NCBI GenBank assembly: GCA_027064085.1
Contig: JAMOQH010000179.1
Location: 1 to 64,000, forward strand
Source of the DNA: a bacterium
Lineage (GTDB): Bacteria; UBP6; JAFGXH01
Length of the DNA stretch: 64,000 nt
Direction: 5' to 3'
Positions 3,138 to 13,654 of this stretch are shown here, in pieces; position 1 is the first letter of the stretch, and each line of letters begins with the position of its first letter. The notes below the pieces were generated by a model. It had not been told where the DNA came from, made no database searches, and saw only the letters and a list, made by a program, of their open reading frames with translations. Both the position numbers and the translations under genes were made by a program.

Positions 3138-6100
3138 CTAATATATTTTAATTGGTGTTATTGTATGTTTAATTAAATCATATTTTAAAATTGATGGTCT
3201 ATGTTGATTTTTTTGTTTAACATATTTAATTTTATAATTATTTAATTTATCTTTTTCTTTAAAATTTTGTAAGTCTCTTAATATTTTTTTAGCATTTATA
3301 CTTTCTTTAGTTTTATTTAAACTTCTAATACTTGATTTTACTGTAGTTGTTTTTTGGGTTATTGGGTCAAAACCTAAAGTAATAGAATTTGATTTAAGAA
3401 AATACCCTGTACCACTATGAAAATAAAAAGTAAATAATATTTCATTTATCATTGCTTTAGTTCTATTTCCCTCATAAGAAAATTCTTGTTCTAAACCGTA
3501 ATAAAGTTTTATATCTCCTAAAAATAAATCATCAAGTAAATGTTCTTCTTTTATAATTTCAATAATATCATAAGCTTTTGAGTATAAATCAACAATCAAA
3601 CTTGAATCAAGTTTTTTTTCAGGAATTTCAGGATTAAAGTTATTATTATTTATCTCTATTTCAATATTATTATTATTATCTGTAAAATAATACAAATTAT
3701 TTAATTTTTTATTTGCCTTAATGCTTATATTTTCATAATCAGATATAATATTTGCAATATATTCGTTTATATTGTTATCATTTTCATTAAATACAGGCCA
3801 ATTCTCTTCTGGTCTTGGAGTAACTTGAGTATTAGATGTTGCAGTATTTCCTATTATATCAGAAAATGCATATCCTCTGCTACCATTAGCATGGCTATAA
3901 TAGCAAAAACCATATTCTTTTAAATATTTTTTAGAGGGGTCTTTTTTAGGCCCTGTTTTAATCCCAAACCAATAATCTTTATGCATATATTCAGAACAGC
4001 TTCCGGGAGAAATAAAGCCTGCATTTCTTTCAGGATCATCACTATACATTAAAAACACCCAAGTTTTTCCTATAGGAAGTCTATCATAGATTAATCCTAT
4101 CCAAAATCTCATACCTGTATTATAAAAAGGACCATCATCCCAAAATGAATCTTTATAAAAACCACCAATTCCATGTAATCCGTTTGCAAATAATTCTCTA
4201 TAACCCCATATCGCTTCTTGGTCACTAGTTCCTGATTTTCCTAAACTCTGGCAACTTCCTGTTAAAAACCATTCTAAATCAGAATCGCCCAGTGAACCTC
4301 CAAATAGAGGATCTTGGAAGTTTATTCCAAAAGAGCCAGTATAATTAGGATTTGCCCCAGTGTTAGTTGTCCAAGAACCGTGAGAATCTTGTAAAATTAA
4401 ATCAGCCCCATCTAGGGTTTCTGCTTGTTTTTTATTTTCATATATTAAATCAGGAATAACCTCATTATCTCCTACTCCTGGATAAAAATATTCTCTTGTT
4501 ACTCCATTTTCACCATAAGGAGAGCTTTCGAAAAAACCCCAAGCGTATTCAGGAGTGGGGGTATTATTTGAACGAATTGCTTTAAATGTTGGTTTATACG
4601 GAATATTTTTACCTAGTATATTAATTTTATTAAGAATATCTTTATTTGAATAATAATCATTTCTGTCTAAAGTAATTTTATTATTGGAATTATTTATAAA
4701 TTCAGGATTAAGGTTCCCAACTATTTTAATAGATTTTATCTTATCTCCAGTGATAAGATTATCAGATAAATCTTCATCATCTTGCCAAATAACTTCTCTT
4801 TTACCTTTAAAGTTTTCTTTTGTAAATAATTCAATGTATCCTTTTAGTCCTTTTCCTTTTTCTAAATACTCAGAATGCCCATAATATTGAATAAATTTAT
4901 CGTAATTTTTAGGATTTATAAATAAAGCTCCCAATTGGTAATAGTGATTTAACCAATCGTTGTTTAATTCTAGTTCTGATGATGCTGTATCTGTATTTTC
5001 ATCTAAATAAATACACTCATTTCTTATAATTTCTGGATTTTCACCACTCATCATATCAGTGGGGCAATAATAAGCTTCCCAACCTTCATTGATTTTAATT
5101 TTTAAATTGCTGGATAGTGCATCATATTCGCAGTAATTCAAATGATTACTATTTCTTTCAGAGTTACAGGCATCAGGAAAGATTAATTGCTCATCTTTTT
5201 TTATAGATGAATAAAAATGTCTAGCAGGATAATCTTTACAAATTCCTTTTTTGCAATTATCTCCATTGCAGTATTCTTGATTATATAAATTTTCTCCATT
5301 AGATAAATCACAGTATTGGTCATAATCACACTGAGCATTGCTTAAGCATCCAGATTCACAATGATTATGATAAGTATTACAGATATAACCACTAGGACAA
5401 GTCTCATCTTGTTCGTTAATATTAGTATATTGGGTACAATAAATTTCTTTTCTACAATACCAATCATTGCCATTATTTTGACAACTATATCCCTGTTCAC
5501 AAATATCGCTATTGTATCCATAACATAACTTTCTATGAATTCTGTGTGTTTTATTGTCGCATTCATAAACTTCAGTATTGTATTGGCTGTTACAACTTTT
5601 TCCATTTAAATGAGATATTTCAACTCCACCATTTTCAATATCATAAGTTTTAAATTTATTATTGGTTTTAATATCAAGCCTAATTGATTTATATCCAAAT
5701 TTAGCTTTATTTACTTTATTTGGTACTATAAAACCCATTATTGTATTATAATATGAACCACTACCATTATCTATTGTTTTTTCATCAAAAATAAATGAAG
5801 TTGCATCAGTATTTGTTAAGTATCTGTCATTTTTAATATTGTAACTAGGCTCTATTGAATTAGTATTTAAATAAGTTCTGATATTATTACTGCTTGTTTC
5901 TATAGACCTAACTCTTAATATTGAATTATTTTGTAAGCCATTTATACTATAAATAATATGATTACCATTAAAGTTAGGCTCGTCATAAGTAATAACGTAT
6001 TCTTTATTTGCATAAAACTCATTAAAGGTATCTGTATTTAATTTAGCTTGAACAATAATTTTTTTTATTAATCCCATACCATGCCAACCGCTATTTTCTT

Positions 6101-7384
6101 GATATTTACATTCTTTTATATCATCGTTTTCATGTTTACATAAAAAAGCTTCCCAACCATCATTTAAATAATATAAAGCATGTTCTAGTTTATTACCAAA
6201 TTCACTATTGCTTACACAAATGTTATCTCCTGGAATATAAATTTTCCCTTTACTACAGTTACTCCATTCAGGGTTAAAGTTGTCATTAAAAGTGATATGA
6301 TTATTTATGTTATAGCAGTTATCATTATTATTACATAAATAAACTCCATTTCCGTTACTTTCATTTGAAGTCCTAGTAACTAATTTTACATATAATATAC
6401 TAGTCATATCAATACCATCGGGTAATTCAAATAAATAATCATCTGGGTTAGGATTTTGCTCTGCAATACTAGCCCATGGGTCAAAAGTAATTTCTTCTCC
6501 ATTAAAATTAATTAAAATTAATTTATAACTAATTTCAAACCTAATTTTTTTTAAGTTTAAGTTACTTACTATCCTATCTTCTCCTGCAATATAATAAGTT
6601 TCATTCATATAAGGTTCTGTTATTAACTCAAATGAATGTTCATCTTCAGTATAAAGTTTAAGATATTTCTTATTTGGATATGTTATTTTAAATTCTTCAT
6701 AATTACTAGGGGAAACTTTAATATACATTCCATATATATTTAAGTTATTTTTAGTTGTATCCCAGTTGTTGGCAGAAAAACAATTACAAACAGGATAGTA
6801 GGGGCTATCACAAATACATGCATCCCTTCCTTTGCTTAACTTAAATGATTTAATTATTCTATCTTCTGAATCAAGTTGATTATCTATCCAAAAATAAGCA
6901 GTTGAGTTACTATTTAGAAGAAATTGACAAAAACCATTTAAATTATTTTTACTACAAATTAATAACCCCAAATCGTTAGTAATGTTTTCAGGATTATTAC
7001 TCATACACAAAAGATGATTATTAAGTAGAGTATCATTACAACTTAATTTATAAATACTGTAAAAATTTTCATAGCCTACTGGTACAAGCCCATCACATGG
7101 GTCAAAGTTTTCACAACTTTTAGCTTGACAAGTATCTCCTTCTCTAATATACCCGTCTAGGCAGTCTCCACAACTCATAATACCATTTTGATAGTTGCAA
7201 GTACGATTCATAACCGTGCAACGGTTATTTGTTAAAAAACAGGGATTTAATATTTGCTGATTTGTAATGCTTAAATCCCCCCCCCCGCAATATGTATTCC
7301 ATCTCTATAGTTACTTAAATTAAAATGATAATTATTTAATTGTGCAACCAAAGAAAATGAAAATAATAATAATAATAACTTCAT
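3138..7384 (-). CDS. very large secreted cysteine-rich protein, frameshifted at a G10 tract (probable phase-variable gene)
   Basis: The body is an uninterrupted 1357-codon frame from ATG 7211. A much better start is ATG 7384, with GGAG ribosome binding site and signal peptide MKLLLLLFSFSLVAQL. That frame enters ten G residues (plus-strand C at 7277-7286) and stops at TAA three bases later. With 8 or 11 G residues, the frame runs through GGG-DLSITNQQ to an extra CFLTNNRC segment and joins the body, giving about 1415 residues. The body has EGF-like or cysteine modules near residues 1-30 and 550-680, and two regions with 'NEGWEAYYC' or similar wording suggesting an internal duplication. A domain around residues 900-1130 contains DSHGSW (His944) and TGSCQSL (Cys987), which resembles a clan CD peptidase dyad. 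No lipobox is present. Whether it is ON or OFF in the cell depends on the tract length. Confidence 0.75.
7277..7286 (-). repeat. G10 homopolymer tract (contingency tract)
   Basis: Ten consecutive C on the plus strand, G10 in the coding strand, in an otherwise extremely AT-rich window. It lies 33 codons after the start of the 7384 gene. With 10 bases the gene terminates at once; with 8 or 11 the full protein is encoded. Slipped-strand mispairing at poly-G tracts is the established phase-variation mechanism in Campylobacter, Neisseria and others. A sequencing error in the homopolymer is the main alternative. Confidence 0.8.
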
Positions 7385-7413
7385 CTTTACTCCAAAATTA
7401 ATTTCAATAAGTT

Positions 7414-9375: not shown

Positions 9376-9736
9376 ATAGAATCCCACATAAACAATGATT
9401 AATATTAAATTTTTTATCAAGAATTGTCAAGTTATTATAGATATAGAGTAAAACATAAGATACTGATTATTTTATTTATATAAAAAATCATTTCTTTCTT
9501 GACTAAAATCTAGATTTTTGATAGAAGATTATCAATTATTAGAAGAGAAAAATGTTACAAGTTACAAGTTACAAGTTACAAGTTACAAGTTACAAGCAGG
9601 TGTATATTGCAGTGTATCTCAACGAGACAAAAAGCTTACTTTTATTTCTCTAAGAAAACGATCTCCTTCTTTAGGTAATATGTTAAAAGAATTAACGGTA
9701 AATTTAAATTTTAACTATTATAAAAAAGGAGAAAAA
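9376..9736. other. 361-bp intergenic region with heptamer repeat
   Basis: This lies between the divergent TPR gene and the 1305-residue exported protein. It contains TTGACT at 9499 as a possible -35, the six-copy heptamer repeat at 9554-9595, and about 140 bases after it that are open in the downstream gene's frame but have no ribosome binding site of their own and encode no recognisable protein. That stretch is noticeably richer in G+C than its surroundings; I cannot assign it to any element. Confidence 0.5.
9554..9595. repeat. tandem heptamer repeat (GTTACAA)6
   Basis: Six perfect copies of GTTACAA in a row, upstream of the exported-protein gene at 9737 and downstream of a possible -35 element at 9499. 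Because the unit is 7 bp, copy-number changes would alter promoter-to-gene spacing rather than a protein. A regulatory role is inference. Confidence 0.85.
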
Positions 9737-12700
9737 TTGAAAAAGTATCTAATTTTAATGTTTTTAATGTTTTCATTGCTTGCAATGGCTACTGCCACTG
9801 AAAGAAGTTTTTTTGAAAAAAAATTAAATAATATTGTGACTTTAAGAGTGCTAGGAGTAACACCAGCTAAGATTTGGGATGACTTAGGGGTAGGCCAAGA
9901 TGTAAATTTTTATTTTAATGAAGATTATGATTTATATGAATGTAAGGATTTTCAGATTAATAATGAATATTGTACTAAAATATATATAGATAATGACTTC
10001 CCATATCATATTAAAGATAGCTCGATAATTAAAGGATATGCCTATGTTTTTAATAATAATGATGTAATAACAAAAGAAAATAGTTATATAATTGCTAAAA
10101 ATTATGTAATTGATGAAAACTATAGTTATGATAAAGGAACAGGATTATTAATTGATAATGATTGTATCTATGATGATACAAATGATTGTATTATTTCTGA
10201 CGGCCAAATAAATAATATTATAGAAAATCTTACTCCTTTTTACAATAGTTGGAAATTAAAGGAAACGATCAATAATAATTACACTGAATTAATAAGAAAT
10301 ATCAATATTACGACACTTAATATTATTTCTGATTCAGAAAATCCATTTAAAGGTACTTCTTCTGTTCCAAAAATACCTTATAATGCAATAAGGGTAGCAT
10401 TAACTGCTAATATCCTAAATAATTTAAATATTGCTTTTGAAAGAAGTGATATAAATGGGGGCGGAAATATATATATTAACAATAATTCTGGTGAAGAAAC
10501 AGATTTTAGTTGTGAAATTTATAAGTTAATAGGACATGTTCCTTTTAATAATTTGTTTAATATGGATTTATGTGATTTAGAAAATACATTTAGTCACCCT
10601 GAAAATATACTTGGAGTTGAAAAAAGGGTTTTATATCAAAAAGTAAAACCCAAAGACAACTCAAATTTTTATTTTGATGATACTACTAAAATAATTAAGG
10701 AAAAAGGGTATGAAAACTCCATTGATACTGAATTAGAAAATTCTAATCCAATAAATCAATCATTAATTTCTAAGTTAACTAATGAGTGGAGTGATGATTT
10801 AATTGTTAACACTAATATTTTTACAAAAGCAACAAAGTTAAATATAAATACTTTTAGTTTCCTTACAAATAAAGATTATGCCAATCAAAATCTCTGGAAA
10901 TTGGTTTCAATAATAATAAATAGAACATTTCAATTTTATGAAAAAAAAGCAAAGGCAAAGGCAAGAATTAAACAATTTATGGAACTTAAAAGTATTGGAT
11001 TATTTTCAAATTATAGATGGCAAGAACTTGGCTTTAATTCATATAAAAATAATGTTAAATCTGAAATAGAAGTAGATGATTTGCTTAGTCTTTATGATAA
11101 CTTTTATGCACAGGATTTAAATACGATAACAGGAGATAATTATAAAAGAATATTTACTGATTCTAAGTACAATATATTGTTTTTAGCTAATTTATTAAAA
11201 AAATTAAACTTAAAAATGATTAATGGTAAGTTATATCATGATTATGATGCAGAATTTATAATCAATTTAATAAAAGTAGATAAAGAAAAAGGATATGAAA
11301 AGTATAGAGAAGAATTATTGTTAGAAAAAGATGCTATACTTGTTAATTTTCATGGAAGCAATGAGGAGTTTTTAGTATTATTTTTTAAACTGCAAACCTT
11401 AAATAAGTTAATTGAAGTATTAAAAACAAATGGGTTTAAAAAAACAATTCCTAATTTCAAGTCATGGTTAGAATATCAAACTAGTAATGGCATATATAAA
11501 GATATATATAGTCAGTTTTCTCAGGAATATATTGATATTTTGGTTAAAGTATTAGATTCTCCTAAAGACGAATCTATTTCATCTTTTAGAGAAATATTAA
11601 TTGATAGTTATGATAATTTAGTTAAAGAAAGTAGAATTGAGGAAAATGGTAATTATGAAGAATTGAGTGAGATTTATTCTAAATTAGAGAATATCGAAAT
11701 AATTACAAGTGATTATAGTAATTTAGATAATGCTGAAGAAATAGAATCAAATAAGAGTGAATATTTTCTTAAAAATTTAATGAATTTAAGAGAAATAAGT
11801 CCCGTTTCTTTCCAAAATATGGTATTAAGTACGAAAAATTTACTTTACAACAAAAATACAAATTTATATTTTATATATAAGCCTTATAAGGAAAATATAA
11901 ATACTTTGAATGCTAATGATGGCTTAAAGAGGCTATTAGTAAATAATATCATAATTACAGATAGTAATGAAGAGGTTTTTAATGATATTAGCTCTTATGC
12001 AAATTTTTCATATTATTTATCAAGTATTTTAATTTCATCACATCATTCAATATATGAAATAGCTGGAGAAATTATTAAAAATTTAAGTTTTTCAGAAAAA
12101 GAAGGTGTAAATTTTGATAAATGGGTTGACGCTTTAAATCAATATGGTATAACGACTGATGGTATTTGGAGCTTTTTTGGAGTTGACAGAGATTCTCTAT
12201 TAACAGAAAAAGAAGAAAAAAATATAGAAGTAAATAAACTTATAAAAAATTATGATTCATTAAATTTTATTGTAAAAAAATATTTAGGTTTAGAAACATA
12301 TTTATATTCTGAAAGCTACGATATAAGTTCCATGTTTTTTGACCCTATAACATCATTACTATTATCTAGAATCTTGGTGGAAAAAGGATATTATGTTGAT
12401 AAAGATGAAAATGGAAATGATGCAATTTTTGATATCAATGGAGAAATTATTTATTTGTCTTTGAAAGTTGATGATTTGATAAGAGAAGTTGGCGATAAAT
12501 ATAATTTATTTAATGATGATTTTGCTAATCTATTTTCAAATACCTCCCTCAATGCTTATTTGGGTAATAAAAATAATAATTCAGCTGACTTAGATAGAAT
12601 GATGGGGTTTATAAAATATTCATATACAAAAGATATACGGACAGGAGAAAGAAATATTAGTTTTACTTTTGGAGTTGACAATATTAGTGATAAATATATC

Positions 12701-13654
12701 TGGAGTAGAATTACTGGAGGTATAGGAGGCCGAGCTGGATTTTGGTCAGCTTTTGCTAAAGTTTCAATGAAATTTGGTATTCCTGGTATTATTCTTGGAT
12801 CTGTTGTTTCATATTTTGTAGGTGATTATATGGCTACTAGGCGAATAGAGAATGAAAGAAGAATCTTAAATGATTTGAGGATAAAACATAGCGGTTACAA
12901 TATTATTGATGATGTCGAAAATGAAAAATATATTAGGGAAAAACATAATGATGGTTGTGAATTTGCTGTAATACAAGATATATTGCATGATATGACTGTT
13001 AAGTCTAAGGAAATATATGATAAAGATAGAAAAACTTTGATTGTAACTTATAGCTTATTACAAGACGCCAAAGATTTTTTGAAATTGGCAAATAATCCCA
13101 AATCCAAAAAAAAGTATGAAGCAGATATTCAAGAGTTAGAGCAAAAGAAAACGGAATTAATTAAAAAAATAAATAAGGAAGAAAAAGTTTATAAAAGAAA
13201 TGTACAAAAAGAAAGAACTGCAGTTAATATAATCAAAAAAATAAAAGAAGAAGAAAAAGAAAAAAAAGAGAAATCAAAACCTAGTAAAATGTGTAGAGCG
13301 GATACTTATGATGAAAATTGTGATTCTGGAGTTGGACCTTCAGGAGACCCTAGATTGATATTAATAAAAAAAGGCGGATTAGGGAAAAAACTTCTTGAGT
13401 TGGCAAATAGAAGAATTGCTAATATACCGCATCAGGAATGTAATATAATAACAAGAACTTGTGGTAATACAATTGAAGTTACAGCAAATGAATTACAAAG
13501 AATGATTAAATCAATTGCGGATAAAGCAAGTAGTGATGATGGTAGTTGTGATTGGAGCCTATTAAATGGGTGTTCATATTTTGAGGGAGGTAATGGCGGA
13601 AATTCTAGTTATATCGATTTATTATGGGATCCCGTTCCTCCATTTGTAGAATAA
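9737..13654 (+). CDS. 1305-residue exported protein of unknown function
   Basis: I start the gene at TTG 9737, which follows AAAAAGGAG by six bases and opens directly into a signal peptide ending AMATA; 73 further upstream in-frame codons cover the heptamer repeat and are not protein-like. The mature protein is rich in Asn, Lys, Ile and Asp and largely alpha-helical by eye. A hydrophobic segment near residues 1010-1030 (GIPGIILGSVVSYFVGDYMA) is followed by a long charged coiled coil (about residues 1085-1190, KKEKSKP end) and a final cysteine-bearing tail ending PPFVE. No family recognised. It is followed immediately by an intrinsic terminator. The membrane segment late in the chain would leave the long N-terminal part outside the cytoplasm if the signal peptide is real. 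Confidence 0.75.
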   Translation: MKKYLILMFLMFSLLAMATATERSFFEKKLNNIVTLRVLGVTPAKIWDDLGVGQDVNFYFNEDYDLYECKDFQINNEYCTKIYIDNDFPYHIKDSSIIKGYAYVFNNNDVITKENSYIIAKNYVIDENYSYDKGTGLLIDNDCIYDDTNDCIISDGQINNIIENLTPFYNSWKLKETINNNYTELIRNINITTLNIISDSENPFKGTSSVPKIPYNAIRVALTANILNNLNIAFERSDINGGGNIYINNNSGEETDFSCEIYKLIGHVPFNNLFNMDLCDLENTFSHPENILGVEKRVLYQKVKPKDNSNFYFDDTTKIIKEKGYENSIDTELENSNPINQSLISKLTNEWSDDLIVNTNIFTKATKLNINTFSFLTNKDYANQNLWKLVSIIINRTFQFYEKKAKAKARIKQFMELKSIGLFSNYRWQELGFNSYKNNVKSEIEVDDLLSLYDNFYAQDLNTITGDNYKRIFTDSKYNILFLANLLKKLNLKMINGKLYHDYDAEFIINLIKVDKEKGYEKYREELLLEKDAILVNFHGSNEEFLVLFFKLQTLNKLIEVLKTNGFKKTIPNFKSWLEYQTSNGIYKDIYSQFSQEYIDILVKVLDSPKDESISSFREILIDSYDNLVKESRIEENGNYEELSEIYSKLENIEIITSDYSNLDNAEEIESNKSEYFLKNLMNLREISPVSFQNMVLSTKNLLYNKNTNLYFIYKPYKENINTLNANDGLKRLLVNNIIITDSNEEVFNDISSYANFSYYLSSILISSHHSIYEIAGEIIKNLSFSEKEGVNFDKWVDALNQYGITTDGIWSFFGVDRDSLLTEKEEKNIEVNKLIKNYDSLNFIVKKYLGLETYLYSESYDISSMFFDPITSLLLSRILVEKGYYVDKDENGNDAIFDINGEIIYLSLKVDDLIREVGDKYNLFNDDFANLFSNTSLNAYLGNKNNNSADLDRMMGFIKYSYTKDIRTGERNISFTFGVDNISDKYIWSRITGGIGGRAGFWSAFAKVSMKFGIPGIILGSVVSYFVGDYMATRRIENERRILNDLRIKHSGYNIIDDVENEKYIREKHNDGCEFAVIQDILHDMTVKSKEIYDKDRKTLIVTYSLLQDAKDFLKLANNPKSKKKYEADIQELEQKKTELIKKINKEEKVYKRNVQKERTAVNIIKKIKEEEKEKKEKSKPSKMCRADTYDENCDSGVGPSGDPRLILIKKGGLGKKLLELANRRIANIPHQECNIITRTCGNTIEVTANELQRMIKSIADKASSDDGSCDWSLLNGCSYFEGGNGGNSSYIDLLWDPVPPFVE

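Follow-up and report, generated by a model that had tools for sequence, protein, structure and literature searches.

A G10 tract in the gene for a predicted secreted DUF6345 protein: a candidate ON/OFF contingency locus in an uncultured bacterial lineage

In the 64-kb stretch of DNA analysed (64,000 nucleotides; the window), a run of ten G residues separates the 5' end of a gene, with its signal peptide, from an unbroken reading frame of 1357 codons. An ON/OFF switch based on slippage offers the best single explanation for this arrangement, which was seen in one assembly of the species, and was given an even chance of being correct. The gene would encode a secreted, cysteine-rich DUF6345 protein of approximately 1415 amino acids, whose reading frame would be set by the G10 tract that lies past the signal peptide and ahead of the first Cys-rich domain. 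Replication slippage would add or remove G residues and thereby toggle a cell between an OFF state (the assembled length of 10, or 9), yielding truncated peptides, and an ON state (8 or 11), yielding the full-length secreted protein; the tract would slip at a useful rate, with both states coexisting in the population. A more specific reading was judged to fall just short of an even chance: a previously undescribed ON/OFF contingency locus of an uncultured lineage, which controls a secreted DUF6345 protein and whose tract developed from a Gly-Gly codon pair once the lineage had separated from its sister genus.

The original prediction of a G10 tract in very AT-rich DNA was confirmed. The tract (7277-7286) is C10 on the + strand and hence G10 on the coding (-) strand, where it covers codons 33-36 of the gene; its first G, in codon 33, lies 98 nt from the start of the ATG. 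GC content of the window was 26%, and its G or C runs of lengths 1 to 5 numbered 11605, 2027, 293, 63, and 6, respectively, with 5 the next-longest length after the single run of 10. A first-order Markov model predicted approximately 0.002 G or C runs of at least 10 in 64 kb and 0.12 in the 3.65-Mb genome. The genome holds two, one of which is on a probably mis-binned contig (C175), so that the tract at 7277-7286 is its only native G run of at least 10. The tract is made of GGG codons, which account for 8.5% of the Gly codons in the window. Its length exceeds the minimum of 8 G within a coding sequence that defines poly-G contingency loci.

An ATG at position 7384 (- strand; read ggagtaaagATG) opens a frame that starts with MKLLLLLFSFSLVAQ, which by eye resembles a signal peptide, and is immediately preceded by a sequence that by eye is Shine-Dalgarno-like (ggagtaaag, 7385-7393, -). 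The predicted ribosome binding site and signal peptide, and a tract position 33 codons into the gene, were thus found as described. The promoter claimed in addition did not hold up: upstream promoter-like matches were not above chance (2 observed versus 3.3 expected in shuffles). At a tract length of 10, the 5' frame (7271-7384, -) ends after 37 codons at a TAA two codons past the tract, and the product, ending in GGGI*, would represent the OFF form. Joining to the 1357-codon frame occurs at tract lengths of 5, 8, 11, and 14 only, with fused products of 1415 amino acids at length 11 and 1414 at length 8, while lengths 9 and 10 truncate. This arithmetic agreed with the predicted stop directly after the tract at length 10 and read-through at 8 or 11, and it would allow the toggling between a truncated and an intact full-length frame by which contingency loci are recognized.

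Single-gene ancestry was evident from an ortholog in a metagenome-assembled genome (MAG) of a sister family (G001), on a contig that is apparently JAFGXH010000185.1. The ortholog is one continuous ORF of 1341 amino acids with a signal peptide and, as in the window, the next gene is Cys-rich and lipoprotein-like (resemblance by eye). Homology extends upstream of the internal ATG at 7211 through the bridging segment, LSITNQQILNPCFLTNNRCTV in the body frame (7212-7276, -), which is homologous to the opening part of the ortholog's Cys-rich region and includes cysteines. LNPC and TNNRCTVMNRTCNYQNGIMSCGDCLDGY match LNPC and SNDCTDENRECNWNSTSGITCGDCLEGF in the ortholog, where one extra EGF-like repeat is inserted between the two. 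The frame must therefore break at the tract or directly next to it, and the bridging codons, described as sensible in the original prediction, are truly coding. Together with the single ORF of the ortholog, the shared bridging cysteines indicated that the two halves are one gene split at the tract, as expected for a contingency locus whose relatives carry both halves as one gene. The internal ATG at 7211 was rejected as the expressed start; by eye it has no ribosome binding site, and initiation there would lose the conserved cysteines and the signal peptide.

At the position of the tract, the ortholog reads GTTGGTGGGGTTTTAAATCCATGC (GGTGGGG), without a G tract, and the longest G or C run in four more distant secreted DUF6345 loci of the phylum was 5. 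The tract is therefore lineage-specific and not part of a conserved contingency locus; conservation at the same place in homologs is common among such loci and not required of them. Most simply, these sequences suggest that the G tract was gained in this lineage. A contig scan of other genomes for this protein returned the sister MAG and one Myxococcota contig, which matched over 44 residues and was not accepted as an ortholog; no match was found among the viral contigs searched.

Recoding could in principle yield some full-length protein from the G10 form with the DNA unchanged, by RNA polymerase slippage or by a ribosomal -1 frameshift at the tract. A slippery heptamer, G-GGG-GGG, lies within the tract, and the shift needed at length 10 is indeed -1. 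However, RNA folding downstream of the tract was not stronger than in shuffles (z -0.73), the ortholog has no need for recoding, and the 37-amino-acid product has no evident use. Recoding was consequently regarded as very improbable.

The body frame (3138-7211, -) consists of Cys-rich modules, GWEA-x-x-C modules and a DUF6345 domain at residues 929-1083. It contained no stop codons, versus 104 and 265 in the other two forward frames. Its GC3 was 0.151, versus 0.143 for other genes, with a codon-frequency correlation of 0.945. No second lesion was found across the 1357 codons and codon usage was normal; decay of the downstream frame, named beforehand as a sign against a switch, was thus looked for in this assembly and not seen. 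The genome holds one copy of the gene.

The only Pfam match above cut-off was DUF6345 (PF19872; 3963-4427, -), with a score of 28.4 bits versus a gathering score of 26.9 (38.2 for the ortholog). A His-Gly pair (H944-G945) and a cysteine (C987) in this domain are invariant among five relatives. These residues recall the catalytic His/Cys pair of caspase-like (clan CD) peptidases, and the product may tentatively be called peptidase-like. Sequence searches of the PDB returned nothing significant, and an AlphaFold model of the C-terminal 498 residues, built from an alignment of two sequences, was too poor to use (pLDDT 33). Some stretches of the repeated GWEA-x-x-C modules that precede DUF6345 are beta/gamma-crystallin-like by eye. 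More distant DUF6345 relatives differ in their N-terminal part, which begins with a segment that by eye is LamG-like, whereas the N-terminus here is Cys-rich. The original description as a surface protein was retained in part: export is predicted from the signal peptide, the surface location was dropped, and the product is better termed a predicted secreted Cys-rich protein. Another secreted ORF in the window (9518-13654) is accompanied by a perfect (GTTACAA) x 6.1 array at 9554-9596, approximately 140 bp upstream of its likely true start. This array is possibly another variable repeat; one further (GTTACAA) array occurs in the genome (C140:21922-21970).

The genome (G000; 3.65 Mb) is a draft of 195 contigs, probably a MAG, and contains 13 separate G runs of at least 8. 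Six are native G8-9 runs within ORFs, mostly of housekeeping-type genes, and all six are in frame (C12, C65, C96, C141, C144, C188). Three G8 or G9 tracts occupy Shine-Dalgarno positions directly before start codons (C51, C182, C188; coordinates L030 6007-6014, L037 6075-6082, and L038 8998-9006), where length changes could tune translation, and two runs lie elsewhere (C61, C141). A G12 on C175 is also in frame, which leaves the G10 at 7277-7286 as the only frame-breaking G run of at least 8. The in-frame state of the other native intragenic tracts counts against a general poly-G assembly error and equally against a multi-gene phasome; a genome-wide phasome was accordingly rejected, and the several loci per genome that are common, and not required, in contingency systems were not found. 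C175 (L036) was not accepted as carrying a second contingency gene: its composition is deviant (GC 0.326; tetranucleotide distance 0.308, versus at most 0.226 for pieces of the window), suggesting mis-binning. This contig encodes two beta-helix-like proteins. Three unrelated genes (L032 6008-6016, L034 13288-13296, L038 6034-6042) share a 14-mer, AGGGGGGGGGCTGA, which in frame encodes R-G-G-A-(D/E), and the genome has 10 copies of GGGGGCTGA versus one of a reversed control. The assembly of a relative contains a G run of 50 bases (G010:C147:24055-24104) that is probably a sequencing artefact.

An assembly or sequencing error in tract length, with a true tract that is uniformly 8 or 11, a gene that is ON, and a tract that is perhaps still somewhat mutable, appears rather unlikely, in view of the correct frames of the six native G8-9 tracts and of the G12 on C175. 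It would agree with the draft status of the genome and with a body that is intact and normal in codon use, as for an expressed gene. As G10 is the longest native tract, length errors could be commoner there than at G8-9; in B. breve, reference tract lengths were wrong or unrepresentative at G11 (PMC9187656).

Lineage specificity of the tract and the lack of a phasome would also suit a recent, fixed frameshift, in which chance expansion of a Gly-Gly codon pair brought the tract to 10 and inactivated a gene whose decay is yet to come. The lack of a second lesion in 1357 codons of normal usage speaks against this scenario, as does the easy reversion of G10, which makes permanent fixation at one length unlikely while the frame is intact. 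A fixed frameshift was therefore considered improbable.

For the slippage switch, the evidence against comprises the absence of the tract from the ortholog and the four distant loci, the lack of a phasome, and MutS, which is encoded in the genome. Mismatch repair involving MutS would lower slippage rates, and some phase-variable species keep it nonetheless. In favour of a switch are the tract with its frames and its GGG codons, the single-ORF ortholog with homology through the bridging segment, the intact body, the status of the tract as sole native G run of at least 10, and parallels in Campylobacter and Bifidobacterium breve. Observed here are the tract, its effect on the frames, descent from a single gene, and a body that is intact. 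Most known poly-G switches come from host-associated bacteria. If true, a switch at this locus would extend their distribution to a little-studied lineage and would single out a secreted DUF6345 protein as one whose expression it pays to vary, for instance when phages or predators exert pressure. The ortholog, intact and without a tract, offers a before/after comparison for the origin of such a switch.

In Campylobacter, tracts of at least 8 G have been reported to mediate switching, with 9-10 as the commonest lengths (PMC6321876). The locus described here shares the intragenic poly-G on the coding strand and, with 10 G, one of these commonest lengths. It differs in number, since Campylobacter strains each carry 5-81 putative phase-variable genes, variable between strains (PMC6321876), versus one out-of-frame poly-G gene here. 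A structural parallel is provided by the sortase-dependent pilus loci bbr_0113 and bbr_1889 of B. breve, in which an intragenic G10-G11 tract stands between a signal-peptide ORF and a body ORF and decides their fusion by its length; the length recorded in a reference genome need not be the commonest in the culture (PMC9187656). An exported product is a further shared feature, predicted here for the DUF6345 protein. In B. breve, slippage was measured with maximum depth sequencing, and tracts are found again throughout the genus (PMC9187656), while the present locus is represented by one assembly, has an ortholog without the tract, and belongs to a different protein family.
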